Of a stretch of DNA of 64,000 nucleotides, positions 5,588 to 61,880 are shown piece after piece. This DNA is from Herminiimonas sp. (GTDB taxonomy: Bacteria; Pseudomonadota; Gammaproteobacteria; Burkholderiales; Burkholderiaceae_D), in contig JAQGMR010000042.1 of NCBI GenBank assembly GCA_028292265.1, positions 1-64,000 on the forward strand, in the 5' to 3' direction. The translations under genes and the position numbers were made by a program. Below the pieces are notes generated by a model. It was not told where the DNA came from. It searched no databases and saw nothing but the letters and a program-made list of their open reading frames with translations. Each line of letters begins with the position of its first letter. The first letter of the stretch is position 1.

Positions 5588-5698
5588 GCGGTACGAGGCA
5601 TTCCGTAGAAAGCAGCCTGTGGAAAGCGACCCGTACAAAGCAGCCTTTACAGACCAGCCCATACAAAGCGGTTCGTACAGAGCAGCCTGCTAAAGGCC
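5588..5698. repeat. Degenerate 14-bp tandem array
   Basis: About eight imperfect copies of a 14-bp unit related to GCCCGTACAAAGCA. It lies in the 308-base gap between the GST start and the 3' end of the next minus-strand gene, about 125 bases past that gene's stop codon. Confidence 0.65.
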
Positions 5699-5780
5699 GT
5701 CGTATGTCACACGAAAGAAAACGGCGCCGCACTCCGTTGGGAGGGCTGCGCCGCTTCGCCTTGCTGCTGCGTTCCCACGA

Positions 5781-5817
5781 ATGACGCCCTGGAAGGTCCC
5801 AGAGCGTCATTTTTTTC
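5781..5817 (+). terminator. Orphan plus-strand intrinsic terminator, possible sRNA end
   Basis: ATGACGC-C-CTGG pairs with CCAG-A-GCGTCAT (11 pairs, one mismatch), followed by TTTTTT. No convincing plus-strand gene precedes it. The 70 bases upstream can form another GC-rich hairpin (TGGGA with TCCCA around 5738-5777), so a short plus-strand RNA may end here. The run of T is on the plus side only, so it is a poor terminator for the convergent minus-strand lipoprotein gene. Confidence 0.6.
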
Positions 5818-5821
5818 TGTC

Positions 5822-7834
5822 TTACTCCGCCCCGTTTCCAGCCAAGTACGTAGCATAGAAATGCGCGAACTCTCGGCCGACTGGATCGCGTGCAAACAGG
5901 TGCAGGCCATTCAGTTTTGCCGCGGCTACATAGGTGCTTGCAGCGTTGACAACGGTGCCGGTGCAATGCGCATCGGCATTCGTCTTTTTCACGCACGGAA
6001 TGGTCGCGGTCCTCGCGGTCGAGCCCACGGTCAGGCTGTCGTTAAAGGCATTGGCGCCGTTGACACCGCCCCACACCGTCAGGCTTGTCGGCGCCAAAGC
6101 ACCCGCGCCAACCGTCCAGTCCAGCGTCGGCCCGGTAGTGGGTGCATCGAAATACTTGTTCGCCGAACTTAGAGCGACCAGTTCAGTAAGATCCACGTCG
6201 GTCAGGTTCGCCATTTCTCGAAGCTTCAACTCGCTGATTGACAACGCGCGAGCCCGGGTCCGGTAGTTTTGCGTTGCGTCCGGCGTCGTGCTTGCATTGC
6301 CTGCGAGGTAGTAATCAAACTTCCACACCGACTGCTGTGCGAAGCCGGTGATGTCCGCGTCGGTCGACGCGGGCGAAGCGAAGTACAACGCGGTATCGTC
6401 GGCAGCCGGATCCAGGTTCACCTTGTCCGGGCTTACATAGACGCTGCGCATGCGCAAGAAGCTGGTGCCCGTAACGGTGCCTGCCTTGTCAAGTTGCAGA
6501 GTGCCGAAACCGGACTTTGGCTTGAGGGTCAGCGTTCCGCCTTTCGGTGTCGTCACGACGACCTTGCTGAAAATCGGATTGCCGTTGTTAAGCGTGTTGT
6601 TGACCGCGGGGACATAACCGGTGCTGTAGTAGTCCGAAGCCCTCTGGTTCACAAACGTGCGCAACTGGTGATACGGCTTGATCGCGCCGTCATAGATATA
6701 TTGGTTTCCGATCTGCTGCAGTTTGGTCGGCGCTGACGCCACATCGGGACGCACCGCAAAGGTGTCGTTGGTGACGTTGCCTGACGCGTCGGTGGCCCGG
6801 TACCCAATGACGATGTCGCCATTCGGACGGGTGAATTCATAGGTGCCTCGATCAAACACCAGGTTGTTGCCACCAGCCTTGAAGATATTTCCGAACGCGC
6901 CGTTGGCTGCGACGAGGTTGCCGTTGCTCTTGAAGGCGGTAGGGTCGTTGTTGACGAAGATTTCCTTGCAGGCGGCAGCCTTGATATCGGTTGCAACACC
7001 AGACTCCGGCACATTCACGCGGTCTGCCACCGGCAATGCATAGCAGGCATTCATCTTTGCCAGCAGCGCCGCAATCAGCGGTGCTGTCCCTGGCTTAACC
7101 AGATTGGCGGCTGTCACCGGCGGAAGGGGCGGGATGGCCGTGGTCGCATTGGAGAACTGGACCACGGTCGGCTGCACGCCGTCGGCGTCGGCCTGTCTAA
7201 CGGATACTTCGATATTGGAGGTTGTCGCGCTTGCAGGGGTGATCTTGATTGAAAGCGAATCGAGTACGCGGTCGGTGCCGGTGCCATTGGCGGCGAACGC
7301 GGTTGTAAGCGGGCTGCCAGTGGCGCCCAGGGCGTCCAGCAGTGGCTTCAGCAGGGCGACGATTTCGGCCACCTTGGCGCTGACAGTAAAGCTGGTCAGC
7401 AGGTTAGGGTTCGCCAGAAATTCGGCTGCCAGTTTGGTTGGGTCGCCGGAGGTGCCCAGGCGTGACGCAATCAGGTTTGTAATAGGGGTGATGTTGATGA
7501 CACCGGACGTCGCGTCTGGGGCCACGCTGACTAGGGTTTGGTCGTCACGCACCGCTTGCAGGACGAAGGGGCCGGCCGAGCCAGCCTTGAGCGTGATGGT
7601 GAAGCTGCCATCGGCCGCGCTGGTGCCACTGCCGACCACCGTGCCGGTCTTGTCGAGGACGCTGATGGCGGCACCGCCGAAGGGGGCGCCACTGGCCGCA
7701 GTGCCGCTGATGGTGGTCGTTGCCGCCAGCACGGGTGCAGGCGCGGCTGTGTCGCTTCCGCCGCTGCATCCGACGATCGTGATTGCCATCGCAATACTGA
7801 GTGCCGTTCTAACGCCAATCTTCCGCTGATCCAT
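5822..7834 (-). CDS. Large outer-membrane-type lipoprotein, function unknown
   Basis: The 670-residue protein starts with a lipoprotein signal (lipobox IVGC, Cys at about residue 23) and a Gly/Ser/Thr linker. A carboxypeptidase-regulatory-like beta domain follows (about 40-115: TTTISGTAASGAPFGGAAISV, residues read in part). A helical stretch (ITNLIASRLG onward) comes next, then a long beta-rich region. Proteins of this build are common in Burkholderiales and mostly uncharacterised. It is transcribed divergently from the response regulator at 8007; a perfect 16-bp palindrome lies between them. Surface or periplasmic location is likely and the role is unknown. Confidence 0.75.
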   Translation of the reverse strand: MDQRKIGVRTALSIAMAITIVGCSGGSDTAAPAPVLAATTTISGTAASGAPFGGAAISVLDKTGTVVGSGTSAADGSFTITLKAGSAGPFVLQAVRDDQTLVSVAPDATSGVINITPITNLIASRLGTSGDPTKLAAEFLANPNLLTSFTVSAKVAEIVALLKPLLDALGATGSPLTTAFAANGTGTDRVLDSLSIKITPASATTSNIEVSVRQADADGVQPTVVQFSNATTAIPPLPPVTAANLVKPGTAPLIAALLAKMNACYALPVADRVNVPESGVATDIKAAACKEIFVNNDPTAFKSNGNLVAANGAFGNIFKAGGNNLVFDRGTYEFTRPNGDIVIGYRATDASGNVTNDTFAVRPDVASAPTKLQQIGNQYIYDGAIKPYHQLRTFVNQRASDYYSTGYVPAVNNTLNNGNPIFSKVVVTTPKGGTLTLKPKSGFGTLQLDKAGTVTGTSFLRMRSVYVSPDKVNLDPAADDTALYFASPASTDADITGFAQQSVWKFDYYLAGNASTTPDATQNYRTRARALSISELKLREMANLTDVDLTELVALSSANKYFDAPTTGPTLDWTVGAGALAPTSLTVWGGVNGANAFNDSLTVGSTARTATIPCVKKTNADAHCTGTVVNAASTYVAAAKLNGLHLFARDPVGREFAHFYATYLAGNGAE

Positions 7835-7912
7835 TTTTTTTCTCCCTGCCCGCTGGTTGAACTGCCTTTTTAAGCTGCCGGGAAACTATAGTTGCTGCAG
7901 TTCAACCGCACA

Positions 7913-7928
7913 TCACATGGCCATGTGA
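7913..7928. promoter_or_regulatory. Perfect 16-bp palindrome in a divergent promoter region
   Basis: TCACATGGCCATGTGA is a perfect inverted repeat between the divergent lipoprotein (start 7834) and response regulator (start 8007). The half sites are in the opposite order to a CRP site (TGTGA-N6-TCACA). It is a candidate operator, perhaps for the adjacent LuxR-type regulator; this is inference. Confidence 0.5.
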
Positions 7929-8006
7929 GGTGACAACTTATTATTTGAGGCAGACTACGGCCACAAAACAGCCCGACCCGAAGGACAAAATGAAGCGAAA
8001 TTCCGA

Positions 8007-8693
8007 TTGATTACCGTGCTCGTGGTCGAAGACGACCCTGCGACCAGGGCGCGGCTATGCGACGCCATCGCCGGTCAACCGAACATGCGGTTGGGCGCCG
8101 CCTGTGACCGCGTGCTTCCGGCGCTGCACTGGCTGGATTCCAACCAGCCGGACCTCTTGCTAACGGACCTTGGCCTGCCCGACGGCAGCGGCATCGACGT
8201 CATCAAGCGCTGTGCGACACGCTACCCGGCCTGCAACATCCTCGTCATCACCATGTTTGGCGATGAAAAGAACGTGCTCTCTTCAGTGGAAGCTGGCGCG
8301 TCGGGCTACATTCTTAAGGACGCCGAGCAGCTTGATGTCAGTCGCGCCATGCGCGAGCTTCTTGCGGGTGGATCACCAATGAGCCCGGTTATAGCGCGCA
8401 AGGTGTTGAATCGCGCGCGCTTGTCTGAAACGTCGGTGGCCGCTTCTGAAACCGTGGTGGATGGGTCGCGCCAAGTAGCCTTGACCGGACGAGAGACCGA
8501 AGCCCTGAACCTGATCGCGCGCGGCTACACCTACGAAGAGACCGCGCGAAACCTCGCTATCTCCCTATCCACGGTCCAGACCTACGTTAAAAGCATCTAC
8601 GGTAAACTCGCTGTCAATTCGCGTAGCCAGGCAGTGCTGGAAGCGCATCGACAGGGACTGCTGCAGGATGACCTTTTCAACAAGCGAAAATAA
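8007..8693 (+). CDS. NarL/FixJ-family response regulator
   Basis: The 228-residue protein has an N-terminal receiver domain (acidic pair in VVEDDP, phospho-acceptor Asp in LLLTDLGLPDGSG, conserved Thr in VITMFG, conserved Lys in GYILKDA). The C-terminal LuxR-type helix-turn-helix (about 158-220) includes LTGRETEALNLIARG and STVQTYVKSIYGKL. The best start is a TTG at 8007; the receiver begins right after it and no in-frame ATG exists nearby. It should be phosphorylated by the kinase encoded next and regulate transcription. The divergent lipoprotein gene is a natural candidate target. Confidence 0.88.
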   Translation: MITVLVVEDDPATRARLCDAIAGQPNMRLGAACDRVLPALHWLDSNQPDLLLTDLGLPDGSGIDVIKRCATRYPACNILVITMFGDEKNVLSSVEAGASGYILKDAEQLDVSRAMRELLAGGSPMSPVIARKVLNRARLSETSVAASETVVDGSRQVALTGRETEALNLIARGYTYEETARNLAISLSTVQTYVKSIYGKLAVNSRSQAVLEAHRQGLLQDDLFNKRK

Positions 8694-10770
8694 TATCGCC
8701 ATAGGGGCCATGGGGGCTGCTCGCGGCCTGCCTGCCCGGTTGCACGGTGATTCGCCGGGTCGCTTCCGCTTCGGACTCTGCTTCAGCTTCAGCTTTCACC
8801 GCCATGTCCCCTTCCGTTTCTGTTTCGATTCCCGCCTTCCCATAAAAAGCATTCTGGAACTTTGGCTGCAACCGACCTGCCGCCTGCCGGGCTTTCGTGC
8901 ATGGGCTTCGCTCTTGCTCTTGATGTTTGCGGTAGTAGCGCCGACGCATGCAATGATGCAATTCGAGAGTGCTTCAGCAAGCTTCGAGCTCGAAAGCGGG
9001 GCGCCAGCGCGCACGCCGGCGACCGTGAAGCTGCCCTACAACTGGGACCGTGACATCGGCGGCATCAGCGGCAAAGGGCGCTTCACCATTCACTTCGCGG
9101 CAGACCCGGCCGGCGTGCAGCAAGCCCTGTTCATTCGCCGCGTGGGCAATTCGTTTGAAGCCACCGTGAACGGCGAGACCATTGCGCGGGTCGGCACTTA
9201 CGGCGACCGCTATTCCGACAGCTCCGCCAGGCCGCGTCTCTTGCTCATACCGCCGGGCCTGCTGCGCGCCCAAAACGAACTGATCATCACCATTGGCGCC
9301 ATGGCGAGCCGCAACGGCGGCCTCGGTGTTGTCTATGCCGGCACCGCCGACGAAATGCGTGAGATGTACGCCGATTCCCTGCGTTGGCGAAATTCGTCCT
9401 TCGGCGTGATGCTGGTAATCAGCTTCATTCTCGGCAGCTTCACCCTCCTGCTCTGGCTGCGCGAGCGCGACCCGCTCTACCTTTACTACGCAATCAGCGA
9501 GCTCCTGTGGGCGGTGCATATCGCCGGCGTACAACTCGAAACAGTGCCCTTCCCGTGGATCTGGTGGGGCATTCTGAATTACATCTGCTACGCCGTGTCG
9601 TCCGGATTTATCTGCAAGTTCGCGCTGACGCTGGTTGGGCGGCATGACGGCCTGCTCAAGCAGCTTTACGGGCTTCAGTTGTGGCTCTCGACCCCGGTCA
9701 TTGTTTTCGGCGTAATGAGCGGGCACCCTGGACTGATATCGGTGTGGCTTGGCATTACGGTGCTGCTTGCCACAGCCGTGGCGGGTGTCGTAATAAGACA
9801 GGCGCTGCGCGCCCGATCCACCGAGCAGCGTGTATTAGCGGTAGCGGTCGGCATTACCGCCGCCGCGGCGGTACACGACATGGTGATGTTCAGAATAATG
9901 AAAGGCTACGGTGGCTTCCCCTTGCTTGCTTTTGCATGGACGGCGCTTGGCATGGCGATGGCGTGGATCATTGCAGATCGCCTTCACAGATCCACGCAAT
10001 CGGTGTCGCGGATGAACAGCACCCTTGCCCAGCGCCTTGCAGAACGGGAGAAAGAACTAGAGCGGCTTTTCGATTCACGTGCAGCTCTCGACCGGCGCGA
10101 TGCCATCGTCGAGGAACGCCAGCGCATCATGCGCGACATGCACGACGGACTGGGCAGCCAGCTCGTCAGTGCCGTGCACCTTATGCGCGACCCCTACGTT
10201 TCGCGCGGCATGCTGACCGAGCAGTTGCAGGACGCGCTGGACCACCTGAAGATGACGGTGGACGCCATGCAAGACACCGATGGCGACATCGCCATGCTGC
10301 TCGGCGCACTCCGCTATCGGCTTGCGCCGCGGCTGGAAGCGATTGGCGTAAGCCTCAGCTGGGACGTGCGCACTTTGCCACCGGTCGACGACTGGACCAT
10401 AGAGAAGTCGCGACACCTGCAATTGATTTTGTTCGAAGCGATCTCGAATGTGATTGCGCATTCGCGGGCTTCGCAGGCGCATCTGAGCGCTGAGGTTTGT
10501 GGAGAGAACGGCCGCGAGGTGATTCGCATCACGTTGCGGGACAACGGAGTCGGGCTGCGGGAGAGTTCGGAGCTGACCGGTGGAGGTCAGGGCCTCGCTA
10601 ATATTCGGGCGCGGGCGGGGAGCATTGGAGCGGGGCTACGGATGGATTCGTCGGCGGATGGGACTGAGTTGCAGCTTGAGCTGCCGGTGCACCGGGCTGG
10701 AATGGCGAATCCCGCTTCGCCGGCGCCGAGATCGGAAGAAGCAACGGCTGCGTCCGCCACGCGGAACTAG
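8668..10770 (+). CDS. Sensor histidine kinase with DISM-type 7TM input (HisKA_3)
   Basis: The open frame begins at 8668, overlapping the response regulator. The first 65-75 residues are low-complexity, coded by a degenerate TTC-rich repeat (about 8758-8840), and precede a clear signal peptide (ASLLLLMFAVVAPTHA), so the real start is probably near 8850-8920. A periplasmic beta domain follows (about 95-235), then seven membrane helices (about 245-445), a coiled coil, a HisKA_3 dimerisation domain with phospho-acceptor His in RDMHDGLGSQL (about residue 492), and an ATPase domain (N box EAISNVIAHS, G box GGGQGLANIRARAG). This is the usual partner of a NarL-type regulator. The input signal is unknown. 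Confidence 0.85.
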   Translation: MTFSTSENNIAIGAMGAARGLPARLHGDSPGRFRFGLCFSFSFHRHVPFRFCFDSRLPIKSILELWLQPTCRLPGFRAWASLLLLMFAVVAPTHAMMQFESASASFELESGAPARTPATVKLPYNWDRDIGGISGKGRFTIHFAADPAGVQQALFIRRVGNSFEATVNGETIARVGTYGDRYSDSSARPRLLLIPPGLLRAQNELIITIGAMASRNGGLGVVYAGTADEMREMYADSLRWRNSSFGVMLVISFILGSFTLLLWLRERDPLYLYYAISELLWAVHIAGVQLETVPFPWIWWGILNYICYAVSSGFICKFALTLVGRHDGLLKQLYGLQLWLSTPVIVFGVMSGHPGLISVWLGITVLLATAVAGVVIRQALRARSTEQRVLAVAVGITAAAAVHDMVMFRIMKGYGGFPLLAFAWTALGMAMAWIIADRLHRSTQSVSRMNSTLAQRLAEREKELERLFDSRAALDRRDAIVEERQRIMRDMHDGLGSQLVSAVHLMRDPYVSRGMLTEQLQDALDHLKMTVDAMQDTDGDIAMLLGALRYRLAPRLEAIGVSLSWDVRTLPPVDDWTIEKSRHLQLILFEAISNVIAHSRASQAHLSAEVCGENGREVIRITLRDNGVGLRESSELTGGGQGLANIRARAGSIGAGLRMDSSADGTELQLELPVHRAGMANPASPAPRSEEATAASATRN

Positions 10771-11192
10771 CGGCCTGGGATTAGAGCGGCAACGAACTCG
10801 CGGAAGTGCGCGCCCGCCGCCATGCCGCCTTTCGCCTTGAAGAGTTCACTCAAGTCCAGCGCGGCAGCGCCAAGCGACCTTGCCGCCACCGCCATTTCGG
10901 CATAGGCGCCGGTCGAGAGAACGCCGGTGGAGACCCGTACGCAGACGAATGGAATGCCGGCCAGGTGCGGCGTGGAGTTGCAATGGGTAAGCAGGTCGAC
11001 CAACCGGCTTTCGTCGAACCGAAAACCGCAAATGATCAATTGAAAGGGTTGTGAGGCAAGAGCAGCCTTGGCTTCAGCAACGTTGCGTGGAAAGACGAGC
11101 GAGTAGTGCGCCCCCAAGGTCGCCTTGATGGCGTCGACAGAGTCTGCGGCCACAGCGGCTAGCACGTTTAACTGGTTTGGGGTTCCGGGCAT
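10767..11192 (-). CDS. Degenerate receiver-like protein
   Basis: The 141-residue protein has the size and alternating beta/alpha pattern of a CheY-like receiver (LNVLAAVA, FQLIICGFRFDESRL, IPFVCVRV). The acidic pair and the phospho-acceptor Asp are missing; the strand-3 end reads IICG. It is probably a phosphorylation-independent pseudo-receiver. It overlaps the 3' end of the sensor kinase by 4 bases on the opposite strand, so the two genes converge. Its role is unknown; it may interact with the neighbouring two-component pair. Confidence 0.6.
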   Translation of the reverse strand: MPGTPNQLNVLAAVAADSVDAIKATLGAHYSLVFPRNVAEAKAALASQPFQLIICGFRFDESRLVDLLTHCNSTPHLAGIPFVCVRVSTGVLSTGAYAEMAVAARSLGAAALDLSELFKAKGGMAAGAHFREFVAALIPGR

Positions 11193-17016: not shown

Positions 17017-17031
17017 CGCCAAGGCGGTCGG

Positions 17032-23599: not shown

Positions 23600-23928
23600 C
23601 CGCCAGCAGTTTCATCATGAACACTTCCGCGCTCGACTGACCGGAGGCCGCAGCGTGCACGCCACGCGGCAGCGACACCATCACGGTTGATGCCTGCCCA
23701 CAATAACGCCACACTGGACGCCACACCGGCCTGTTGCCCCGAGGCCAATCGCATGAGCCCGGTCAATACAGTGTTGGCGGACAAACGTAGAGTGCAGGGA
23801 AGGCAAGGGCGCATAGCGCTCATAGCGCTCATAGCACTCATATCGCTTCTATCGCTCGTATTGTTTGTTGCAAGTTAAAGCTTGCCGCAGGCCGGCGTGG
23901 CGGTGGTTCGGACACGGCGGAGAAAAGT
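23600..23928. other. Non-coding interval with a repeat array
   Basis: No gene is supported here. It holds a 9-bp tandem array (listed separately). A minus-strand stretch around 23690-23780 translates to something vaguely transporter-like but cannot be assigned. The promoter of the Wza-like gene should lie near its 3' end. Confidence 0.5.
23812..23856. repeat. 9-bp tandem array
   Basis: Five copies of CATAGCGCT-like units (CATAGCGCT twice, CATAGCACT, CATATCGCT, TCTATCGCT). It lies downstream of the cyclase gene and 70 bases before the Wza-like gene. Confidence 0.8.
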
Positions 23929-26227: not shown

Positions 26228-26300
26228 CGGCCGAAAGAGTGAGCTGACGGGGCCGAAATTCTGCGACAGACAGTCTGGCGGCAACGAAGTAGATCGACTC

Positions 26301-26327
26301 AGCGACACCAGCGACACCAGCGACAAA
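26301..26327. repeat. 9-bp tandem array
   Basis: Three copies of AGCGACACC (the last AGCGACAAA), 73 bases after the lipoprotein stop codon and just before the PLD gene. Confidence 0.6.
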
Positions 26328-26352: not shown

Positions 26353-27645
26353 ATGGTTTTCAGCTACTTTAATATCCTCGCACTGCTCTCCATCGCGGTC
26401 GTTGCAGCACTAACGTTTGTCGTTCTCTTCGAACCTGGCCTTGACTACCGCATTAGCGTGCCGTTGCCGGCGCCGGATTCGGAGGAATTCTTCCGCGTGC
26501 TGAGTGCTGTGGTCGATGAACCGGCGCTGCAGATTGTTGACCACGAGGTGTTAACCGATGGCCTCGCTTTCTATGACGCACAGCTCGAAGCGATCCGCGG
26601 CGCGCAGTCGACCGTTCATCTTGAAGCCTTCATTTTCCACACCACCCCGATAGGCGATCGTTTCCTCGAAGCCTTGACCGAGCGCGCCGCTGCGGGGGTC
26701 AAGGTGCGCGTGGTGGTGGACGCCGTTGGCAGCATGCTGACGCGCGACCGTTATTTCGCGGGGCTGCGCAAAGCGGGTGGCGAAGTCGCGTGGTATCAGC
26801 CATTTCGCTGGTACACCCTGAAGCGCTTGAACAATCGCACCCACCGGGAGTTGATGGTTGTGGATGGAAAGACCGGGTTCATCGGCGGCGCCGGCATCGG
26901 CACTGCCTGGGCCGAGGGGGAGCGCGGGCAACGGCCGTGGCGCGATACGGTGGTGCGCCTGTCGGGGCCCATTGCAGCGGCACTGCAGACTGCTTTTGTT
27001 GAGAACTGGCTGGAGGCGGCTGGAGAAATCTTGACCGACCGGGTGGTGTACCCGGCGCAAAACACGCATCTGCAAGCGACGGTCATGCATGAAAAACTGA
27101 GCATAGTTGTGGCCAGTGCGCCGTCAGCCGGTCGCGCAACGCGGGCGCGTATCCTGTTCCAGATGGTGTTGGGGGCGGCGCGCTCCAGCATCTGCATCAA
27201 CTCACCCTATTTCTTGCCAGACCGTGCGCTGCGGCGTGAATTGCTGCGCGCGGTTGAGCGCGGCGTAAAAGTCACCGTTGTCGTCCCTGGAGTCCACAAC
27301 AACCACCTCATGACGCGCATCGCAAGCCGACGCCACTATGGCGAATTGCTCGAAGGTGGGGTTGCGATTCACGAGTACGAGCCAGGAATGATTCACGCCA
27401 AGATCCTGATTGTGGACGCGCTCTGGTCCGTCATTGGCTCGACCAATTTTGACAATCGTTCCTTTGGCTTGAATGATGAAGTCAACCTCGCCGCGATGGA
27501 CCGCGACCTCGCGCAGCGGCTCATGGTGGACTTTGAAAACGACCTCCGCCGCAGCCGACGTGTCGAGCTTGCGGAATGGCAGCGACGTTCGCTGGGGGAG
27601 CGCGCATTGGCAACGGTGGGCGTGTTGGTGGAGCGCCAGCAATGA
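26353..27645 (+). CDS. Phospholipase D-family protein, probable cardiolipin synthase
   Basis: The 430-residue protein has an N-terminal membrane helix (about 3-25) and two PLD domains. The second HKD motif is intact (IHAKILIVD, then IGSTNFDNRS). The first reads HRELMVVDGKTGFIGGAG, with Glu where the canonical Lys of HxKxxxxD stands. That variant may be typical of this subfamily or may alter activity. Cardiolipin synthases of this class join phosphatidylglycerol molecules in the inner membrane. The ATG at 26353 begins directly at the membrane helix. Confidence 0.85.
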   Translation: MVFSYFNILALLSIAVVAALTFVVLFEPGLDYRISVPLPAPDSEEFFRVLSAVVDEPALQIVDHEVLTDGLAFYDAQLEAIRGAQSTVHLEAFIFHTTPIGDRFLEALTERAAAGVKVRVVVDAVGSMLTRDRYFAGLRKAGGEVAWYQPFRWYTLKRLNNRTHRELMVVDGKTGFIGGAGIGTAWAEGERGQRPWRDTVVRLSGPIAAALQTAFVENWLEAAGEILTDRVVYPAQNTHLQATVMHEKLSIVVASAPSAGRATRARILFQMVLGAARSSICINSPYFLPDRALRRELLRAVERGVKVTVVVPGVHNNHLMTRIASRRHYGELLEGGVAIHEYEPGMIHAKILIVDALWSVIGSTNFDNRSFGLNDEVNLAAMDRDLAQRLMVDFENDLRRSRRVELAEWQRRSLGERALATVGVLVERQQ

Positions 27646-27769
27646 CGGTGCAAATTTATGCCGGCTGCGTCATGAGCCTCTCGGGCGCCCGGCCAGAGTG
27701 TTGATTATTCGCGTGGCCGCTGCCAGGCGCAATGTTAAGCTCAGGCCTGAACAATTACCGGCTCAACTC

Positions 27770-28195
27770 GTGATATCTCGCTTCTTTTCTGTGCTTGCCG
27801 CGGCACTGTGTCTCAGTCTTGCCGCCTGTGGTGGTGGTAGCGGCGGCGTTGCAATCGTTTTGCCAACCCTTTCCGGTGTCTGGGGTGGACAGCATATTGG
27901 GTTGACCATCTCGGATTCCGGCGCAAGCCTGGCATACGACTGTGCGCACGGCACGATCGACGGCCAGATCCGTCTTGACCAGACCGGACGATTCAGCGTG
28001 AACGGCATTCACATCATCGGACAGCCTGGGCCGACAACGCCTGGCGCCACCATCAATTCTCATCCGGCGCGCTATGACGGACAGGTGCAGCAGGACAGTC
28101 TTTCCCTGACCGTCACACTGACGGACACTGGCCAGAATGTCGGCACCTTTCTGCTGACACGAAATGGGACGGCGCAGGTATTTGCCTGCCTTTAG
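27770..28195 (+). CDS. Small hypothetical lipoprotein
   Basis: The 141-residue protein starts at a GTG and has a lipoprotein signal (lipobox LAAC, about residue 21). A compact beta-rich domain follows (LSGVWGGQHIGLTISDSG, FSVNGIHIIGQPG, LSLTVTLTDTG). It is probably exported to the outer membrane. The function is unknown. An 8-bp tandem array starts five bases past its stop codon. Confidence 0.7.
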   Translation: MISRFFSVLAAALCLSLAACGGGSGGVAIVLPTLSGVWGGQHIGLTISDSGASLAYDCAHGTIDGQIRLDQTGRFSVNGIHIIGQPGPTTPGATINSHPARYDGQVQQDSLSLTVTLTDTGQNVGTFLLTRNGTAQVFACL

Positions 28196-28200
28196 GGCTG

Positions 28201-28248
28201 CAAACTAGCAAACCAGCAAACCAGCAAACCAGCAAACCAGCAAACTGC
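28201..28248. repeat. 8-bp tandem array
   Basis: Six nearly perfect copies of CAAACCAG, beginning five bases after a stop codon. Confidence 0.9.
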
Positions 28249-28328
28249 GCTGGCGTGCCGGAGGCTTGGGCTAGCGGTGGCAGGCCGGAAGCAGATCGCC
28301 GGTGCGGTCCCTCCGACGTGCATGGTAC

Positions 28329-28760
28329 TCAGAACCGGCTGGGGCGGTACTTGTGGTTCGCGACGATGGTGGTTGATCCAACCAGGCTGTTCAAGCCCAG
28401 CACCAGTTGCGTTAGCTTGTCATCGGGAAGCGTCCATATCTGCGACCGCGGCGCCTCGATGCCGGTCGCGGCAGTGATCACGGGCGCAGCCCATTGCGCT
28501 TCCGGCGTGACGTCGAGCAGGACAGCGTCGACGCTGGTATGCATGAAGATCTGGCCGCCATGGTCGAGCCAGAAACAGACGCCGTATCCGGAGGCATTGG
28601 CCCGATTGACCGAGCGCTGCAACGACTGGTCGAGTTGTTGTATCCAGGCTTCGGCATCCTGCTGAGTCTTGAGGTCGTTCCAGCGGGCTCTGGTTGCCTC
28701 TTCGATCTCGTCCGCGGCGACGTCGTGCGATGGGTCTTGCGAATCTTGTTCGGTGTTCAT
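28329..28760 (-). CDS. Hypothetical protein
   Basis: The 143-residue soluble protein has an acidic N-terminus (about 1-30), a helical centre (ARWNDLKTQQDAEAWIQQLDQSL) and a beta part (GYGVCFWLDHGGQIFMHTS, then QIWTLPDDKLTQLVLGLNSLVG). I recognise no family. The codon use and composition look real. It is a single gene; no operon partner. Confidence 0.65.
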   Translation of the reverse strand: MNTEQDSQDPSHDVAADEIEEATRARWNDLKTQQDAEAWIQQLDQSLQRSVNRANASGYGVCFWLDHGGQIFMHTSVDAVLLDVTPEAQWAAPVITAATGIEAPRSQIWTLPDDKLTQLVLGLNSLVGSTTIVANHKYRPSRF

Positions 28761-28912: not shown

Positions 28913-28981
28913 AACTGCTGGGGAGTCTTCTGGCGACTGCTTCTGGGGTCTGCTGGTAACTGCTTCTGAGCCTGCCGGTGG
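28913..28981. repeat. Degenerate 23-bp repeats
   Basis: Three imperfect units of about 23 bp, each beginning ACTGCT and containing CTGG/TCTG runs. They lie 42 bases past the stop codon of the minus-strand MarR gene. Weak. Confidence 0.4.
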
Positions 28982-29964: not shown

Positions 29965-30300
29965 ATGGCCATACCCACAGCAATACTGATTGAAGCGGCA
30001 CCCCGGATTTTTGAGGCGGCCATGGGCGCGCTAGACAAATGGAAGTCGCGACCCAAACCCGAGCCCGTCGACCCGTCCGCGGACCCGCGTGCGCAACTTG
30101 CCGCCATCGTGGCAAGACTCCAGGCCCTTGAAGACACCGAATCGAGCCAGGCAGAAGTGGTGAAGAACATCGCGGGACAGCTACAGGGTCTCTCGGCCGG
30201 CCTTGCGGAATGGTCCCGAAAAACGACGACTGCGCTATGGATCGCCGGCGTTGCTGTGGCCGCTTCAATCGTGGCAATTGCTGTCGCTGCGCTGCGCTAG
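29965..30300 (+). CDS. Small tail-anchored membrane protein with coiled coil
   Basis: The 111-residue protein has an amphipathic N-terminus, a Pro-rich stretch (WKSRPKPEPVDPSADPRAQ), a coiled-coil-like helix (LAAIVARLQALEDTESSQAEV) and one C-terminal membrane helix (ALWIAGVAVAASIVAIAVAAL). The ATG at 29965 has GAAAGAAG upstream and is preferred to the TTG at 29947. The function is unknown. Confidence 0.65.
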   Translation: MAIPTAILIEAAPRIFEAAMGALDKWKSRPKPEPVDPSADPRAQLAAIVARLQALEDTESSQAEVVKNIAGQLQGLSAGLAEWSRKTTTALWIAGVAVAASIVAIAVAALR

Positions 30301-30357
30301 CTTCTGGCATCGCTCACTAGGAACGACGATCAGGGTGACAGGTGTACTGAATCGATG

Positions 30358-30450
30358 TATCCATGAATTCATAAAGCCGTAAATTCATGAATCCATGAAT
30401 CCATGAATCGATTAGTGGGTAGATTCATGAATTAATGAATCCGTGAATCT
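30358..30450. repeat. 8-bp ATGAATCC array
   Basis: An AT-richer stretch with about ten imperfect copies of ATGAATCC and close variants (CATGAATC, ATGAATTC, GTGAATCT), 58 bases after the small membrane protein's stop codon. Confidence 0.75.
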
Positions 30451-31518: not shown

Positions 31519-31587
31519 AGGGGATCCGCAGAGGCGGGTCGAAAGGATCCGGTTTAATAAGCCGAACGCACAAAGGTGAATGAAGTG

Positions 31588-31680
31588 AGGCCGGTGCAGT
31601 AAGGCGACTGCAGTAAGGCGACTGCAGTAAGGCGACTGCAGTGAGGCGGACAAGGTAAGGCCGGTGCACCAAGACCGGTG
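31588..31680. repeat. 14-bp tandem array
   Basis: About six and a half copies of AGGCGACTGCAGTA, three of them perfect or nearly so in the middle and variants (AGGCCGGTGCAGTA) at both ends. It lies between the Bug gene stop (31518) and the monooxygenase start. Confidence 0.88.
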
Positions 31681-34209: not shown

Positions 34210-35280
34210 GTGTCCTCGTCCCCGTCGTCATCCTTGCCCCTGTCTGCATCCGCATCTGCATCTGCATCCGGGTCCGCATCCGCACCGCCATCCCCGTCCA
34301 CAGACTCCATTGCCAGCTCGGCTCCGCCGGTCGTCGACTTCGACGCCGCAACGGACCTCAATGAGTTGTATTCGTTGCTCGACCGTGTCCAGATGAAGAA
34401 CGGCTGGGCCAAGCCCACCCCATCGATTTACCCGGAACCAAAAAAACCTTTCGTGCCGGCGCATTGGCGCTATGCCGACGCGCGCGCCGCGCTGCATGCC
34501 GCCGGCCGGTTGGTTGGTACCGAGTGGGCCGAGCGCCGCAACCTCATCATGGCCAATCCGATTCCAGGCAACGACTATGCGACCGTGCGTACCTTGGTCG
34601 GCGCCTACCAGATGGTCAAGGGCGGCGAGTCGGCGCGCAGTCATCGACACACGCCCAACGCCATGCGGATCGTGCTGGAAGCCGCGCCCAACACATTTAC
34701 CATCGTCGATGGCAAGAAGATCCCGATGTTGCCGGGCGACGTGCTCCTGACGCCGAACTGGCATTACCACGGCCACACCAACGAGAGCACGCAGGATGCC
34801 TACTGGATCGACGTGCTCGATGCGCCGTTAGTGCAATTCCTCGGCCCCATGTTTTTCAACGTGCATCCAGACCGGCTGGAACCTGCAGACGAAATCGACA
34901 GCCGCTCGCCAATGCGATTTGCTTATGCGGACTACAAACCCGCGCTGCTGCTGGCGGACGAAATTGCACGCGGCGTTCGGACGTTGGAGCTTGGACCTTC
35001 GGCACTTCCCACGTTCGACCGCGTAGCGGTGCACCTCGCCGCTGGCACAAAGTGGTCGTGTCAGCGCAGCACCGTCAACCAGATATTTACCGTGATTGAA
35101 GGCCAAGGCGAATCCTCGATTGAAGGTCAGCGTTATGCGTGGTCGGCCGGCGACATGATGGTGGTCCCGTCGTGGTACGAGCAGGAGCACGTCGCGCAAG
35201 AGAATGCGGTGTTGCTGCGTGTGTCCGACGAACCGGTCATGCGCATGCTGGGGTGGTACCGTCAGCAGCCGTGCGACTGA
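34210..35280 (+). CDS. Gentisate 1,2-dioxygenase-like cupin
   Basis: The 356-residue bicupin matches gentisate 1,2-dioxygenase in length and motifs: SHRHTPNAMRIVLEA and the iron-binding NWHYHGHTNES in the first cupin, and a second cupin near VIEGQGESSIEGQRYAWSAGD. It opens the ring of gentisate with O2. The GTG start has AAGGAAAG upstream. Residues 2-36 are an unusual Ser/Ala/Pro-rich leader coded by a 6-bp GCATCC/GCATCT repeat (34243-34290). It is the last gene of the Bug-monooxygenase-FAH operon. Confidence 0.85.
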   Translation: MSSSPSSSLPLSASASASASGSASAPPSPSTDSIASSAPPVVDFDAATDLNELYSLLDRVQMKNGWAKPTPSIYPEPKKPFVPAHWRYADARAALHAAGRLVGTEWAERRNLIMANPIPGNDYATVRTLVGAYQMVKGGESARSHRHTPNAMRIVLEAAPNTFTIVDGKKIPMLPGDVLLTPNWHYHGHTNESTQDAYWIDVLDAPLVQFLGPMFFNVHPDRLEPADEIDSRSPMRFAYADYKPALLLADEIARGVRTLELGPSALPTFDRVAVHLAAGTKWSCQRSTVNQIFTVIEGQGESSIEGQRYAWSAGDMMVVPSWYEQEHVAQENAVLLRVSDEPVMRMLGWYRQQPCD

Positions 35281-35499: not shown

Positions 35500-36090
35500 A
35501 TGTTGCTCATAAGAATAAAGACGCTTGCTGCGCTCCTAGTCGTGCTGCTGGGCGCGCCTGCGTATGCGTCAGTCGTCGCGCACTTGCATGAAGAGTTCGC
35601 ATCGGGCGCCGTCTATAACGGCGACTTGACGTTTGCAGACAACTACGCAGCGCTGCTTTCAGCAAACGGCGCCTTGTCCGGTACTGGGTACGGCGTGCCG
35701 CTGGCGATGAACTTTGTTTGGTTAGAAGGCGTGCTGCCAGGCAAGAACCAGACCGACGTGCCGGGCCGTCTGAACGACTGGCTGGCGGACGGACCGCTCG
35801 GGAAGACGACCATCGGCATCGTCTGGGAATTTCCATCCGCCCAACTGGTGCTCGATCTTGCTGCATCGAACGCGGAGTGGGATACCGCAATCTACGGCAC
35901 AAGTTACTTCGCCGGACTCACAGTGTTCGACGCCAACGGGGCAGTAATCACTTCCGATGCAGCGGTCAGACACACCTTGGGTGGGGATACCCTCCCACCG
36001 CCAAACAGGGTTCCTGAACCGGGCAGCATCCTGCTGCTTGGCACAGGCATTGCCGCGCTGTTCGGCATGCGGCGGCGCAAGGCCGCATAA
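35500..36090 (+). CDS. PEP-CTERM sorting-signal exported protein
   Basis: The 196-residue protein has a signal peptide (residues 1-24, ending AYAS) and a C-terminal PEP-CTERM tail: VPEPGSILLLGTGIAALFG followed by MRRRKAA. Exosortase (EpsH/XrtA type) recognises this tail. The mature part is an unassigned beta-rich domain. The upstream 150 bases are much more AT-rich than the rest of the window. PEP-CTERM proteins go with exopolysaccharide biofilm systems, which fits the Wza-like gene at 23929. Confidence 0.9.
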   Translation: MLLIRIKTLAALLVVLLGAPAYASVVAHLHEEFASGAVYNGDLTFADNYAALLSANGALSGTGYGVPLAMNFVWLEGVLPGKNQTDVPGRLNDWLADGPLGKTTIGIVWEFPSAQLVLDLAASNAEWDTAIYGTSYFAGLTVFDANGAVITSDAAVRHTLGGDTLPPPNRVPEPGSILLLGTGIAALFGMRRRKAA

Positions 36091-52623: not shown

Positions 52624-53096
<473 letters not shown>

Positions 53097-53100
<4 letters not shown>

Positions 53101-56299: not shown

Positions 56300-56370
56300 A
56301 AGGAGCCTTTTGCGCTGCGGTTGGTATATTGTCGAGCCGACACCCGTTGTGGGCGGCGACCGCGGAACGT

Positions 56371-56386
56371 ATATCGTATACGATAT
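56371..56386. promoter_or_regulatory. GntR/FadR-type operator palindrome
   Basis: ATATCGTATACGATAT is a perfect 16-bp palindrome whose core TCGTATACGA fits the FadR-subfamily GntR consensus t.GTa-tAC.a. It lies 72 bases upstream of the hydroxylase operon start and 189 bases before the divergent patatin gene. No GntR gene lies in the window. Confidence 0.7.
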
Positions 56387-56574
56387 CTGTGCGCCGGTGA
56401 TATGAAAATGTCGTCTCCTGGCGGTTTGCGGCACACTAAACGCGGAGCACCGGCGTTGAGATCGGTGCGGCGCCGCACAGCCAGCCTCACCGGCGCGGCG
56501 TACAACACGCAATCCAGAGCGCGCCTGGCCAGCCTGACATGGCGGCATCGCGCTTGCTGTATCCACGGAGAGAA

Positions 56575-57729: not shown

Positions 57730-57753
57730 GCGCGGGCGGGGGCAGTGAATGCG

Positions 57754-57795
57754 GCGGCGACATGGCAATACCTCTGCCATGTCGCCGCTTTTTTA
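57754..57795. terminator. Strong intrinsic terminator after patatin
   Basis: GCGGCGACATGGCA and TGCCATGTCGCCGC form a perfect 14-bp stem followed by TTTTTTA, 24 bases past the patatin stop codon. Confidence 0.93.
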
Positions 57796-57851
57796 TACCA
57801 CTGGTACGGGCACTGCTAATGCGCTATTCACTGCTGCACTGTCGTGTTCGC

Positions 57852-57929
57852 CGCCGCATTGATTGCAGCATTGATTCCCGCAGTGACTGCCGAACTTAAT
57901 GCCGCAATTACTGCCGCAATTACTGCATA
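57852..57929. repeat. 12-bp tandem array touching a stop codon
   Basis: About six copies of GCCGCAATTACT and variants (GCCGCATTGATT, GCAGCATTGATT, GCCGAACTTAAT). It starts inside the last codons of the minus-strand 3-hydroxybutyrate dehydrogenase and runs on past its stop. Confidence 0.8.
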
Positions 57930-58702
57930 TGCCAGCCGTGGCTGACAAGAATTGACTGCCCGCTTAATGCCGTCGAGGGAAATGCCGCCAGCCAAAGCGC
58001 GGTCTGCGCCACGTCTTGCGTGGTGGTGAATTCGCCGTCGATGGTTTCCTTCAGCATGACGTTCTTGATAACCTCCGCCTCGCTGATATGCAGGGCGGCG
58101 GCCTGCTCGGGAATCTGCTTGTCGACGAGTGGCGTGCGCACGAAGCCCGGGCAGATTACGTTGGCGCGAATGTGGTCCTTGGCGCCTTCCTTTGCTGCGA
58201 CCCGTGCCAGCCCCAGCAAGCCGTGTTTGGCCGCGACATAGGCACTCTTGAGCGGTGAAGCCTCGTGTGAATGCACGGATCCCATGTAGATGATCGCGCC
58301 GCCCTTGCCGGCCTTGATCATTTCGCGCATGCAGGCACGTGTGGTCAGGAAAGCGCCATCGAGATGGATCGCCAGCATCTTCTTCCAATTGTCAAAAGTG
58401 AAGTCAACGATCGGGCTGATGATCTGTATGCCTGCATTGCTAATGAGGATGTCCACGCCGCCAAAGGCGGCCACCACTGCAGCCACGCCCTGGTCGACTT
58501 GTGCTTCGCTTGTTACGTCCATCGCCACCGCCATCGCGCGGCCGCCGGACCGCTTGATTTCCTCGGCCGTTGCGCTGGCCGCGTCGAGCGCGAGATCGGC
58601 GATTACAACACTGGCTCCTTCGCGTGCGTATTCGATTGCGATCTCGCGACCGATGCCGCTGGCGGCGCCCGTAATAATGGCGACCTTGTCCTTGAGTTGC
58701 AT
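57920..58702 (-). CDS. bdhA: 3-hydroxybutyrate dehydrogenase (SDR family)
   Basis: The 260-residue short-chain dehydrogenase has the [11 protein letters not shown]-binding motif, NAGIQ, catalytic Ser in GSVHSHEAS, and YVAAKHG (Tyr and Lys). The NAGIQ and YVAAKHG forms are typical of 3-hydroxybutyrate dehydrogenases. It interconverts 3-hydroxybutyrate and acetoacetate. ATG 58702 begins directly at the Rossmann fold. It is followed upstream, 10 bases away, by the acetoacetate decarboxylase gene, which uses its product. Confidence 0.9.
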
Positions 58703-58712
58703 GATGTTTTCC

Positions 58713-59459
58713 TTACCGTTTCTGGTTGAGATAATCGTGTGCCACGAATCCGAGCGGCAGCGTGAGATCCGCCACAATATGGGTGGCCGAAAGAACTTCG
58801 AGTACCGGCAGTTTTGCCACCGGCGCCAGCGCATGCGGATTCAGGTCCAGCGCGCCGGGTCCAGTCCACGCGCCCTTGACAACGACGTCGCACAATCGAT
58901 ATTGCACCAGTTCGCAAATGCGGGCTTTGCCATCGACATGCGGGATGATTTTTAGCAGGAAGGAGGGTGCTTCGAGTGACTTTTTCGCCGCCTCAGAATC
59001 GAGCAGGCAATGCTTGAAGCCCATGGAGCCGGTAGCGACCCGGAAATCGCTGTAGTCGAGTGTGCCAACCAGGGTGTCTTTATGAACGCGCAATTCCGGA
59101 TCGCCGAGTTTTTTGGGGAAGCCCCAGAGTTCGCGTCCGGCGGCGATCGGTGGATGGTCGTTCAAATACATGCTGAGCACGAAGCCGCCCGAGACGCCAT
59201 CCAGGCTGACGGGAATGACTTGCCCGGCTTCGCAATAGTGACCGAAGCCAGTTGAGTCGGGCATGTTGATGAACTCGAAACGGACCACCGGTTCAATCAA
59301 CTTTAGTGGCTCGGGAATCAACTTGCGCAGCGCTTCCGGATCGGTCCGGTAGCTGATGATCAGGTATTCCCGATCCACAAAACGATATGGGCCAGGCGGA
59401 TACGCCGGATTGTCGAATGGCATGGCAAACGCATTGCGGCGGACTTCGTCTTCAGTCAT
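58713..59459 (-). CDS. adc: Acetoacetate decarboxylase
   Basis: The 248-residue protein matches acetoacetate decarboxylase in length and motifs. Examples are [20 protein letters not shown] near the N-terminus and [16 protein letters not shown] with the Schiff-base lysine region, followed by MGFKHCLLD. It converts acetoacetate to acetone and CO2. ATG 59459 is the family start. It forms a two-gene operon with bdhA. Confidence 0.92.
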
Positions 59460-59577
59460 GAGTATTGGAGGGGCACAAGGGTGGGTGCGGCAGCGCGACA
59501 ACGCTGCCGGTGTGGCTATGGCGTCATGGCCGCGCGGTGCTCAACTGCAGTGAGCCTGCGCCATGACGGTTTGCTGG

Positions 59578-59910
59578 CTATCGACGTGATCCGCGCGCCT
59601 GTTGCCTTGCTTCGGCCATCGCTTCGTCGTAGTGCATGGCGGCCCGGCGCAGGCAAACCGAGCGCTCGGAACGGGCGCTGCGGTCTTGTTTACAGTCCGC
59701 TAAAGCTTCCTTGTATGCCGCACCGGCTTCCTTCTGCGATGTCTGGAAATGCGCGCGTGGTGTCGTGTCTTCCTGGTACCAGCGCGCCGGATCGCGGTCT
59801 TGCATTGATTCGCCACGCGACGGGCCCGCAGCCCAACCGGAATGGATCATCAAGGCGCCGGCCGCGATGGCGATGGCGGTCCGAATTGCGTTTTTTGTAG
59901 TGGTGTTCAT
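59578..59910 (-). CDS. Small secreted protein of unknown function
   Basis: The 110-residue protein has a signal peptide (ending GWAA) and a mature part rich in charged residues with two cysteines (ALADCKQDRSARSERSVCLRRAA read in part) that may form a disulfide. AAGGAG lies just before the ATG. Similar small periplasmic proteins are frequent in Burkholderiales; no function is known to me. Confidence 0.7.
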   Translation of the reverse strand: MNTTTKNAIRTAIAIAAGALMIHSGWAAGPSRGESMQDRDPARWYQEDTTPRAHFQTSQKEAGAAYKEALADCKQDRSARSERSVCLRRAAMHYDEAMAEARQQARGSRR

Positions 59911-59930
59911 GAAAGCTCCTTGGATGGGTT

Positions 59931-60083
59931 TTAAAGTCGGCCGGTCAGCAACATGACGATCAGGACGACGACGATCAGGCCGGTCACACCGCTCGGGCCA
60001 TAGCCCCATTTCCGGCTGTGGGACCAGGTCGGCAATGCGCCGATGAGGATGAGGACGAGGACGATCAATAGAATGGTGCTCAT
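59931..60083 (-). CDS. DUF3309 family small membrane protein
   Basis: The 50-residue protein starts MSTILLIVLVLILIGALPTW and continues SHSRKWGYGPSGVTG before a second hydrophobic segment (LIVVVLIVMLLTG). This is the DUF3309 pattern of two membrane helices with a conserved Trp/Gly/Pro loop. It is probably in an operon with the secreted protein at 59578 (20-base gap). The function is unknown; such proteins are often stress-associated. Confidence 0.8.
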   Translation of the reverse strand: MSTILLIVLVLILIGALPTWSHSRKWGYGPSGVTGLIVVVLIVMLLTGRL

Positions 60084-60201
60084 TGCTTGCTCCTGAAAAA
60101 ATTATTGTGGTGTAGTGCAAAGTGTCATAACGACGGCTCAGCTTGCCCGGAAATTTTTGTCGGGACGCTCAGTCCCGTTCCCTGCACGCTACAAGCCAAA
60201 A

Positions 60202-60822
60202 TTAATATCGGTAGGCCCGGCCGTCAGCGATTCGGACCCGGTCACCAACGCGCAACTCGTACACGCTGTCTTGCGTAACCGCGGTGGTGTCACCGTTGTC
60301 GAGACGAACGCGAATCTGGTACATGTCCGGCGCCGGCGCATTGCGGTTTCGTTCGACGCTGTTGCCCACGTAGGCGCCGCCCAGCGCGCCGGCAAGCGTT
60401 GCCGCCGTATTTCCATTGCCGCCGCCAACCTGATTACCTAGCAGGCCGCCGACCAGTCCACCGACAATAGCGCCGGCGCCACTCGTCCCTGGCGAGGAAC
60501 GAATGCCGTCGATCGATTCAATCGAGCCGTAGTAGACGGCGTTGGCTTGATACTGCGATTGATTCTGGCCCTGATACTGGCCTGGATTCTGACCTTGATA
60601 TTGGCCCTGGTACGGCCCTGGATTCTGGCCTTGATATGGACCTTGATATGGACCCTGATATGGACCTTGATACGAGGACTGATTCGGAGATTGGTACTGG
60701 GCCGGATACGCCGACGACGGGTACGCGCCGGGGTAGGCCGGCTGCGAATCATAGGTTGCACAGCCACCGAGTACGCCGGTTGTAACGACCAGCAGCGCGC
60801 CAACTTTCAGTACTGAATTCAT
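60202..60822 (-). CDS. Glycine-zipper 2TM lipoprotein with Gln/Pro/Tyr-rich repeats
   Basis: The 206-residue protein has a lipoprotein signal (lipobox LGGC), a low-complexity segment of YQGPYQGQ-type repeats (about 45-95), and a glycine-zipper 2TM domain of the SlyB/OmpA-associated type (GAGAIVGGLVGGLLGNQVGGGNG, read in part; then LAGALGGAYVGNS). A small beta domain with RVRLDNGDTTAV closes it. It is probably an outer-membrane structural lipoprotein induced by envelope stress. The repeat segment is made of 9-12-bp DNA units and may vary in length between strains. Confidence 0.85.
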   Translation of the reverse strand: MNSVLKVGALLVVTTGVLGGCATYDSQPAYPGAYPSSAYPAQYQSPNQSSYQGPYQGPYQGPYQGQNPGPYQGQYQGQNPGQYQGQNQSQYQANAVYYGSIESIDGIRSSPGTSGAGAIVGGLVGGLLGNQVGGGNGNTAATLAGALGGAYVGNSVERNRNAPAPDMYQIRVRLDNGDTTAVTQDSVYELRVGDRVRIADGRAYRY

Positions 60823-61105
60823 GCGTGTCTCCCTTTAAGGTATGTGGCAAGAATAGCGGTGCGGCCTTGCAGGGTATGTACGGTGCCGCACCGAGAGGGG
60901 AAGGGCAAAGTGGAGGGCGGAGGAAGGCGGGCCTCGTTGTGTATGTCACCGCACAGAACATGCGCTGATCTCTGGAGATAATCATTTCCGCAATGCCGGT
61001 GCTGTCGGCGCTGCGCCACCATATCGATGCTTCGTCGCCGTGGGTGGTGCAGCCAGTCAGGCTGACACCGGACCGAAAACATCACATACAAGAAAGAGGG
61101 AAACC

Positions 61106-61252
61106 ATGCTCTATACAATCGCCGTCATCCTGCTAATCCTTTGGGTCCTGGGCCTGGTCACGTCCACTACGATCGGTGGCTTCATCCATATCCTGCTGGT
61201 GGTCGCCGTAGTTATGGTGCTGGTCAAATTGATTAGTGGCCGCGGCATCTAG
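61106..61252 (+). CDS. Lmo0937-family small membrane protein
   Basis: The 48-residue protein has two hydrophobic helices (LYTIAVILLILWVLGLVTS and FIHILLVVAVVMVLVKLI) around the STTIGG turn, as in lmo0937-family proteins. AGAGGG lies before the ATG at 61106. The role is unknown; such proteins are often stress-induced. Confidence 0.82.
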   Translation: MLYTIAVILLILWVLGLVTSTTIGGFIHILLVVAVVMVLVKLISGRGI

Positions 61253-61880
61253 ATTGCAGCGGCAAGAGCTGGCGGCCCTGCGTTTCGGACCGCCAGCATC
61301 GTTCCTACTCAGCGGTTTTCTCGTTCATGTACTGGCGGCCAGTCAGTAAGTAGAACTGATGAGCAAAGCAGCAAAGCAGCAAGGCAGCAAGGCAGCAAAG
61401 CAGCAAACCCAGTAAATCAGCAAGTCACCGCATCTCAGCAAGTTCTCAAATCTCAGCAAGTCATCAGACGTCAGCAAGTCATCAAATCTCAGCGGGTCAT
61501 CAGATCTCAGCAAAGGTGCCGACCAAAATAGCCGCGGCCACCAGCGCGGCTTGTCCATGCCCTGGCGCCTCAACCGCCCCTCCAGTCCGCAGCATTTGAT
61601 TTGCATGGCCTCCGCGCTCTCTCCATTTCTCATCGGCTCCCGTCCGGTCCAACGATTTCTCGTTACCGATCTCCTCGCCAAATTGCAATTCGTATCGGCG
61701 CAACCACGTTTGCGTTCCTATGTACGCAAGCGAACGGATAGCCGTACGGCAATAGTGGATAACGGAAGCGTCGGCGAGGGATTTTCCTTCGTCATCCGGA
61801 TGAATGGGGTGGACATGAGCCGCCCTCTCGAAAAAACCGGTGCCGGGGTTCCGGCAGCACCGATCACACAAGGAAACAAA
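61253..61880. other. 628-base interval with tandem repeats
   Basis: It contains a GC-rich hairpin (CTGGCGG/CCGCCAG around 61270-61296), then the array at 61361-61514. A minus-strand frame (61500-61871) is open but ends within the repeats and is not supported. The promoter of the ice-binding-like gene should be near 61800. Confidence 0.5.
61361..61514. repeat. Composite tandem array (8-bp and about 18-bp units)
   Basis: Five to six copies of AGCAAAGC/AGCAAGGC are followed by about five units of 17-20 bp built on TCTCAGCAAGTCATCA. The array lies 109 bases past the lmo0937-like gene. The change from a short to a longer unit that keeps the CAGCAA core suggests stepwise expansion. Confidence 0.82.

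Follow-up and report, generated by a model that had tools for sequence, protein, structure and literature searches.

Burkholderia is counted among the few satellite-rich bacteria in sections of the survey by Subirana and Messeguer (Subirana and Messeguer, 2019; PMC6749651). For B. pseudomallei, passages of a study of its tandem arrays describe them as clustered and 68-75% intergenic (U'Ren, 2007; PMC1853098). Parts of the former survey also mention unrelated, scattered satellites in Methanobrevibacter ruminantium. A 2025 survey of bacteria and archaea (PMC12699852) reports, in the portion considered here, a weak enrichment of short tandem repeats upstream and downstream of genes, and part of its discussion describes a preference downstream of transcript ends. 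Our search of the literature on tandem repeats in Oxalobacteraceae, judged by titles and the first lines of abstracts, returned no paper on such arrays.

Here we analysed arrays of this kind in a 64,000-bp stretch of DNA (the window), which is part of a genome of 4,853,548 bp in 76 contigs that is 91.8% complete. We put the probability at roughly 80% that the arrays are unrelated to one another and mostly intergenic, that they were born on the spot by duplication and slippage, and that they are kept mainly behind genes by tolerance.

Results

Tandem arrays in the window

A first-pass annotation of the window had named nine places with short tandem arrays and put nearly all of them 5-215 bases after stop codons. 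TRF found an array at 9/9 of these places (Table 1), and in our own gene models, combined with Pfam matches, each follows a predicted stop codon at a distance of 4-212 nt. The proposed siting in 3′ flanks stands in that all nine arrays follow stops, but it is incomplete, as several, such as those ending at 26325 and 31661, also lie just before the next start. The genes upstream of two of the arrays (27791-28195 and 29965-30300) are predicted and have no Pfam match. The placement of the array at 61362-61513 relies on the DUF5670 gene, which is supported by Pfam and was missed by our gene caller. The arrays at 4816-4853 and 34243-34299 were detected at a TRF score of at least 50.

Several other features of the window were recorded. 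The gene that carries the coding array at 60548-60710 has a glycine-zipper (17-kDa antigen-like) domain. Positions 61551-62750 encode a predicted ice-binding protein (Pfam PF11999), and positions 35500-36090 a PEP-CTERM protein (PF07589). The segment 28379-28591 has DNA matches of about 66-77% identity in many genomes of the family; it falls within a minus-strand ORF (28329-28760) without a Pfam match. A comparison of positions 26353-28700 with a plasmid collection returned one record, with 4% covered.

Table 1. Tandem arrays and a terminator-like hairpin in the window. Where two or more periods are given they are separated by a slash.
Coordinates	Strand	Feature	Unit and copies	Neighbourhood	Source or remark
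4816-4853		19-bp duplication	1.9 copies	convergent gap behind 3726-4673	absent from the first-pass list
5603-5687		14-bp degenerate array	6.1 copies, 64% matches	134 nt behind stop of minus-strand gene 5822-7834; 89 nt before start of minus-strand GST gene 4890-5513	TRF
23812-23847		9-bp array	CATAGCGCT, 4 copies	212 nt behind stop 23599; 81 nt before ATG 23929 of polysaccharide-export (SLBB) gene, or 171 nt if its start is 24019	TRF
26300-26325		9-bp array	CAGCGACAC, 2.9 copies	72 nt behind stop 26227; 27 nt before ATG 26353 of phospholipase-D-like gene	
28200-28245		8-bp array	GCAAACCA, 5.8 copies, 97% matches	4 nt behind predicted stop 28195	
28925-28968		23-bp duplication	only 1.9 copies	54 nt behind stop (29023) of minus-strand MarR gene	
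30348-30449		8/40-bp array	TGAATCCA	47 nt behind predicted stop 30300; ahead of TctC receptor gene	
31573-31661		14/28-bp array	TGCAGTAAGGCGAC	54 nt behind TctC stop; 50 nt before likely TTG start 31712 of FAD monooxygenase gene	
34243-34299		6/18/24-bp array		intergenic by our gene calls, yet within longer ORF 34210-35280	absent from the first-pass list
57753-57789	+	intrinsic terminator-like hairpin	15 pairs and T run	behind patatin gene; before array 57878-57926 and separate from it	
57878-57926		12-bp array	CCGCAATTACTG	overlaps stop of minus-strand 3-hydroxybutyrate dehydrogenase gene 57920-58702; convergent gap with patatin gene	
61362-61513		two joined arrays, 8 bp then 18/36 bp	AGCAAAGC, then TCAGCAAGTCATCAAATC	109 nt behind stop of DUF5670 gene 61040-61252; 91 nt before 61605	TRF
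60548-60710		coding array	triplet period	in a predicted gene	TRF
62978-63048		coding array	triplet period	in a second predicted gene	TRF
63414-63481		coding array	triplet period	in a third predicted gene	TRF

Arrays across the genome

The search was extended to a sample of 1,504,758 bp that includes the window and makes up 31% of the genome. Genes in the sample were called by our own script, which combines a periodic Markov model with the filling of long gaps. It gave 1,173 genes and 81.6% coding DNA; small genes such as the DUF5670 gene at 61040-61252 escape it, and the starts are approximate. At TRF scores of at least 60, 61 of the 97 arrays lie between genes (22.1 per 100 kb) and 36 within genes (2.9 per 100 kb), a rate ratio of 7.5 (p 5e-22). 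Lowering the cut-off to 50 raises the numbers to 87 in intergenic DNA (31.5 per 100 kb) and 67 within genes (5.5 per 100 kb). In a first-order shuffle of the first 1.16 Mb, used as a single control at scores of at least 50, there were 0 intergenic arrays versus 76 observed, and 6 in genes. Head-to-tail copies of short units are well above chance relative to this control, as expected of minisatellite or VNTR arrays. The periods are wide-ranging, mostly 6 to 40 bp, and the arrays are clustered along the genome (variance/mean 1.69 in 70 bins of 15-20 kb, p 0.0003). One contig (G000:C12:1-244) opens inside an 8-bp array (CCGAAGCA) of about 20 copies, suggesting that arrays may cause breaks in the assembly and that our counts may be too low.

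The first-pass annotation had seen in these arrays a genome-wide habit of growing repeats in 3′ flanks and had proposed a genome-wide run of a tandem-repeat finder. Our run on 31% of the genome revealed arrays throughout the sample, together with an enrichment in 3′ flanks. The genome-wide part of the proposal is therefore borne out, and a preference for 3′ flanks exists, but the arrays are primarily intergenic, and the 3′ bias is secondary to their excess over coding DNA.

Position within the gaps between genes

Convergent gaps have the highest density of arrays at scores of at least 50, with 51.0 per 100 kb, followed by tandem gaps with 32.5 and divergent gaps with 14.7. The 74 of 87 arrays that could be assigned to a gap class comprise 17 convergent, 49 tandem and 8 divergent ones, versus 10.3, 46.8 and 16.9 expected by length (p 0.011). 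Within tandem gaps, the 30 arrays with scores of at least 60 have a mean position of 0.357 on a scale from 0 at the stop to 1 at the start (p 0.0028). Behind stops, arrays cover 2.4-2.7% of the DNA between +40 and +100 nt, with the top value of 2.7% at +60 to +80 nt. In the 200 nt before starts the coverage is 0.5-1.3%: it is 0.9-1.3% at first and drops to 0.5% in the final 20 nt. Inside the genes, next to their stops and starts, it is 0.1-0.8%. Perfect two-copy duplications, which were counted without TRF, gave a profile of the same shape, with 0.7-0.8% at +20 to +120 nt behind stops versus at most 0.54% before starts.

The direction was the same in every repeat of the analysis with four gene sets and two cut-offs, and convergent gaps exceeded divergent gaps 1.6- to 7-fold. 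The p values ranged from 0.0007 to 0.45 for the gap class and from 0.0024 to 0.12 for the position in tandem gaps, and the bias was weaker under stricter gene calls. The 3′ bias is thus moderate and dependent on the gene calls. A strand asymmetry relative to the flanking genes was not supported, with A exceeding T in 26/45 tandem-gap arrays (p 0.39); the GC skew gave p 0.046.

The 3′ excess could be mutational and not selective, if transcription termination or head-on polymerase traffic raised the rates of breakage and slippage behind genes. The coverage peak at 40-100 nt behind stops and the high density in convergent gaps would agree with such an origin, as would the hairpin-forming units, with z below -2 in 29% of 100 strands from 50 arrays versus 7% of 100 control strands. 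However, terminator-like hairpins were detected in few flanks, 7/65 with arrays and 25/527 without (p 0.07), and the z distribution as a whole does not differ from that of the controls (p 0.20). In addition, folding per base is weaker in the arrays than in other intergenic DNA (p 0.005), and six pooled relatives show no clear bias. A mutational cause of the 3′ excess is therefore possible but rather doubtful.

Comparison with relatives

The relatives are six genomes of other genera in the family, with about 96-200 kb sampled from each and pooled. At scores of at least 60, the present genome has 61 arrays in 276 kb of intergenic DNA versus 14 in 182 kb in the relatives, a 2.87-fold difference in density (p 0.00013). 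The ratio is 2.6 at scores of at least 50, with 87 arrays here and 22 in the relatives; two of these 22 occupy matching positions close to the ends of two contigs of genome G012 with equal period and score, and are probably one repeat counted twice. The 17 of 22 arrays that could be placed showed no clear bias with respect to gap class (3 convergent, 10 tandem and 4 divergent versus 2.0, 9.3 and 5.7 expected), a comparison of low power. The mean position of the relatives' arrays, 0.60, leans in the opposite direction, and there was no clear peak of duplications behind their stops. Sixteen loci of named genomes (217 kb) contain 4 intergenic arrays at scores of at least 60, or 15.8 per 100 kb, suggesting that other betaproteobacteria may approach the present density. 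The excess is clear against the six relatives, but not against every betaproteobacterium.

Loss of a repair gene was considered as the cause of the high density and rejected. MutS and RecJ are present in the genome. The ExoI C-terminal family (PF08411) had no match in it, at 91.8% completeness, but its absence is common elsewhere: its distribution across the order is patchy, with the family present in 10/24 genomes and absent from 13/23 other genomes. It is present in 5/6 of the genomes used for the density comparison, the sixth, G018, being outside that search. An absence of ExoI may nevertheless provide a lead to the array density.

Origin of the arrays

If the arrays were born on the spot, the first step would be a tandem duplication of whatever sequence happens to be at the site. 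Replication slippage would then extend the array locally, and the products would persist mainly behind genes, where growth alters neither a protein nor a promoter. Growth by slippage, as the first-pass annotation had assumed, fits the data. Local birth is favoured by the unrelated units and by the lack of arrays in two orthologous gaps of other genera. It had also described diverged units at the array ends as a sign of decay; in 25 arrays the difference between edge (0.79) and middle (0.83) was not significant (p 0.12). We infer that slippage and a raised duplication rate in the lineage produced the arrays, and that the 3′ bias stems from relaxed selection and not from a targeted mechanism.

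The array at 57878-57926 illustrates how a seed could arise. In the sense of the dehydrogenase gene its unit reads CAG TAA TTG CGG, which contains the last codon and the stop of the gene. The end of the dehydrogenase protein is conserved, and the coding end is therefore the likely seed of the array. A duplication spanning a stop does not alter the protein, as translation still ends at the first copy. Among ten dehydrogenase 3′ ends, three have stop-spanning duplications, and their units differ (12 bp here and, in two other genera, 9 bp in G019 and 7 bp in G014); the two-copy case of 7 bp in G014 could be due to chance. A 12-bp stop-spanning duplication was also present in 2/9 of the phospholipase-like 3′ ends, both from one genus. 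The two genes were picked for their location in the window, so these counts are suggestive and do not give a rate. The best organism-named protein matches of the dehydrogenase come from Glaciimonas and Janthinobacterium, suggesting that the genome is that of an Oxalobacteraceae-like betaproteobacterium.

It is conceivable that gene ends act as nurseries, in which orthologs repeatedly and independently seed arrays from their last codons and stop that grow into the 3′ flank, at a high rate in a lineage that may lack the single-strand exonuclease ExoI. We consider this extension unlikely and put it forward tentatively. In our sample, 8/1,145 stops and 2/1,142 starts lie within arrays, a difference that is not significant (p 0.11), and perfect duplications span five stops versus one start (p 0.22); in the relatives, perfect duplications were found at 3/695 stops and 3/694 starts. 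Since array coverage peaks at 40-100 nt behind the stop, birth across stop codons would explain only a minority of the arrays.

Unit periods and coding repeats

At scores of at least 50, 45/87 arrays between genes have a period that is not a multiple of three, versus 8/67 in genes. The scarcity of such periods in coding DNA is expected from selection against frameshifts, and 59/67 of the coding arrays have triplet periods. Triplet periods are in excess between genes as well (42/87, p 0.004), and some of these arrays may lie in missed genes or be of coding origin. Could the intergenic arrays mostly be decayed or unrecognised coding repeats? Besides the triplet excess, the failure of our caller to recognise at least one real small gene (61040-61252) would be in line with this. 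Against it, the other 45 periods are not divisible by three, 6/9 of the listed arrays in the window have 8-, 14- or 23-bp units, and some units, such as TGAATCCA and TGCAGTAAGGCGAC, contain stop codons. A general derivation from coding repeats is thus improbable.

Unit sequences and possible functions

The first-pass annotation had described the unit sequence as different each time, and our comparison agrees. The 61 arrays include 55 units with a period of at most 30 bp, and in a gapless comparison only 1/99 same-length pairs of these units were at least 75% alike. The unit GCAAACCA occurs as three exact copies in 1/293 other genomes of the family, none of which is marked as belonging to the same genus, and at one locus there. 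A motif shared between units was also considered and rejected: the most frequent 4-, 5- and 6-mers have counts like those seen in random intergenic units. Single 6-mers stand out, for example GCAGTA, which is present in 5 units versus 0.4 expected, uncorrected for the number tested.

The position of the arrays behind genes, and the strong folding of a few of them, would be compatible with functional RNA or DNA elements, such as terminators, protectors of RNA 3′ ends or arrays of protein-binding sites. The array at 31573-31661 has z values of -3.6 and -4.3 and that at 30348-30449 a z value of -4.3 on the reverse strand; both contain short palindromes in their sequence. The proposed effects on termination, mRNA 3′ ends or chromosome structure nevertheless found no support in our data. 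Terminator-like hairpins are rare at the array flanks, and in the seven flanks that have one it lies before the array in four, overlaps it in two and follows it in one. Hairpins with a T run are thus not a feature of the arrays, and the clear terminator at 57753-57789 lies outside its array. No RNA family matched the window in Rfam at gathering thresholds, RNA structure gave a mixed picture with no general signal, and neither the weak folding per base nor the lack of a shared unit points to a function. In addition, arrays are absent from two orthologous gaps in other genera, both shorter: the TctC-monooxygenase gap in G054, which corresponds to the gap of the 31573-31661 array, and the patatin-dehydrogenase gap in G012. 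In G002 there is likewise no array behind the DUF5670 or dehydrogenase genes, although its DUF5670 gap is not strictly equivalent, as a match to the ice-binding gene was not found in the stretch examined. Sections of a study of back-up stop codons report no compelling evidence for their selection in bacteria (PMC6764699), which speaks against a role as safety stops as the reason for which the duplicated stops of the present genome are retained. A functional role for the arrays in general is therefore very unlikely.

A derivation of the arrays, as copies or remnants, from a single mobile element or repeat family has their number in its favour but can practically be dismissed, in agreement with the first-pass annotation: the units are unrelated, a 401-bp query around the 28200 array matched its own genome only at itself, and sequence shared at many loci was found neither in the comparison of units nor with this query.

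Discussion

The few bacteria in which home-grown tandem arrays are known are here joined by a further, densely repeated genome. The probable local birth by duplication and slippage, followed by tolerance behind genes, also offers a testable reason for the siting of the arrays, since duplications that span a stop are invisible to the protein. Gene ends can in this way supply fresh non-coding sequence and length variation, and the arrays are candidate markers for strain typing in the lineage.

How do these arrays compare with those described elsewhere? The TAACTGA heptamers of Beggiatoaceae also form many short intergenic arrays per genome, but parts of that report (PMC4679880) describe a single heptamer common to the arrays, most of which sit immediately upstream of starts, whereas the arrays here have no common unit and are biased to positions behind genes. 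The satellites of M. ruminantium are likewise unrelated and scattered. They differ in belonging to an archaeon, and the statement in that part of the survey concerns long units (>30 nt) under a rule of four repeats of a decamer (PMC6749651). Relative to the short tandem repeats in the portion of the many-genome survey cited above (PMC12699852), the present units are mostly longer, and their 3′ excess is stronger than weak.

Intergenic VNTR loci of close likeness are described from Burkholderia (B. pseudomallei and B. mallei), a genus that is probably of the same bacterial order as the present genome. As far as sections of the two reports go (PMC1853098; PMC6749651), both have many short-unit arrays, mostly intergenic, with triplet units favoured in genes and with clustering along the chromosome (variance/mean 1.7 here). 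The majority of our arrays are likewise intergenic, and triplets likewise prevail in genes. The two differ in their units. About a third of the Burkholderia arrays share a unit in the portions of those reports used here, whereas the present units, with periods mostly of 6 to 40 bp, are almost all unique; the 1/99 pairs come from a gapless comparison in the 31% sample, which is not the rule of the paper. The arrays represent, at unusual density, a known and mostly ordinary phenomenon, intergenic minisatellite or VNTR arrays as known in Burkholderia, and not a new system.
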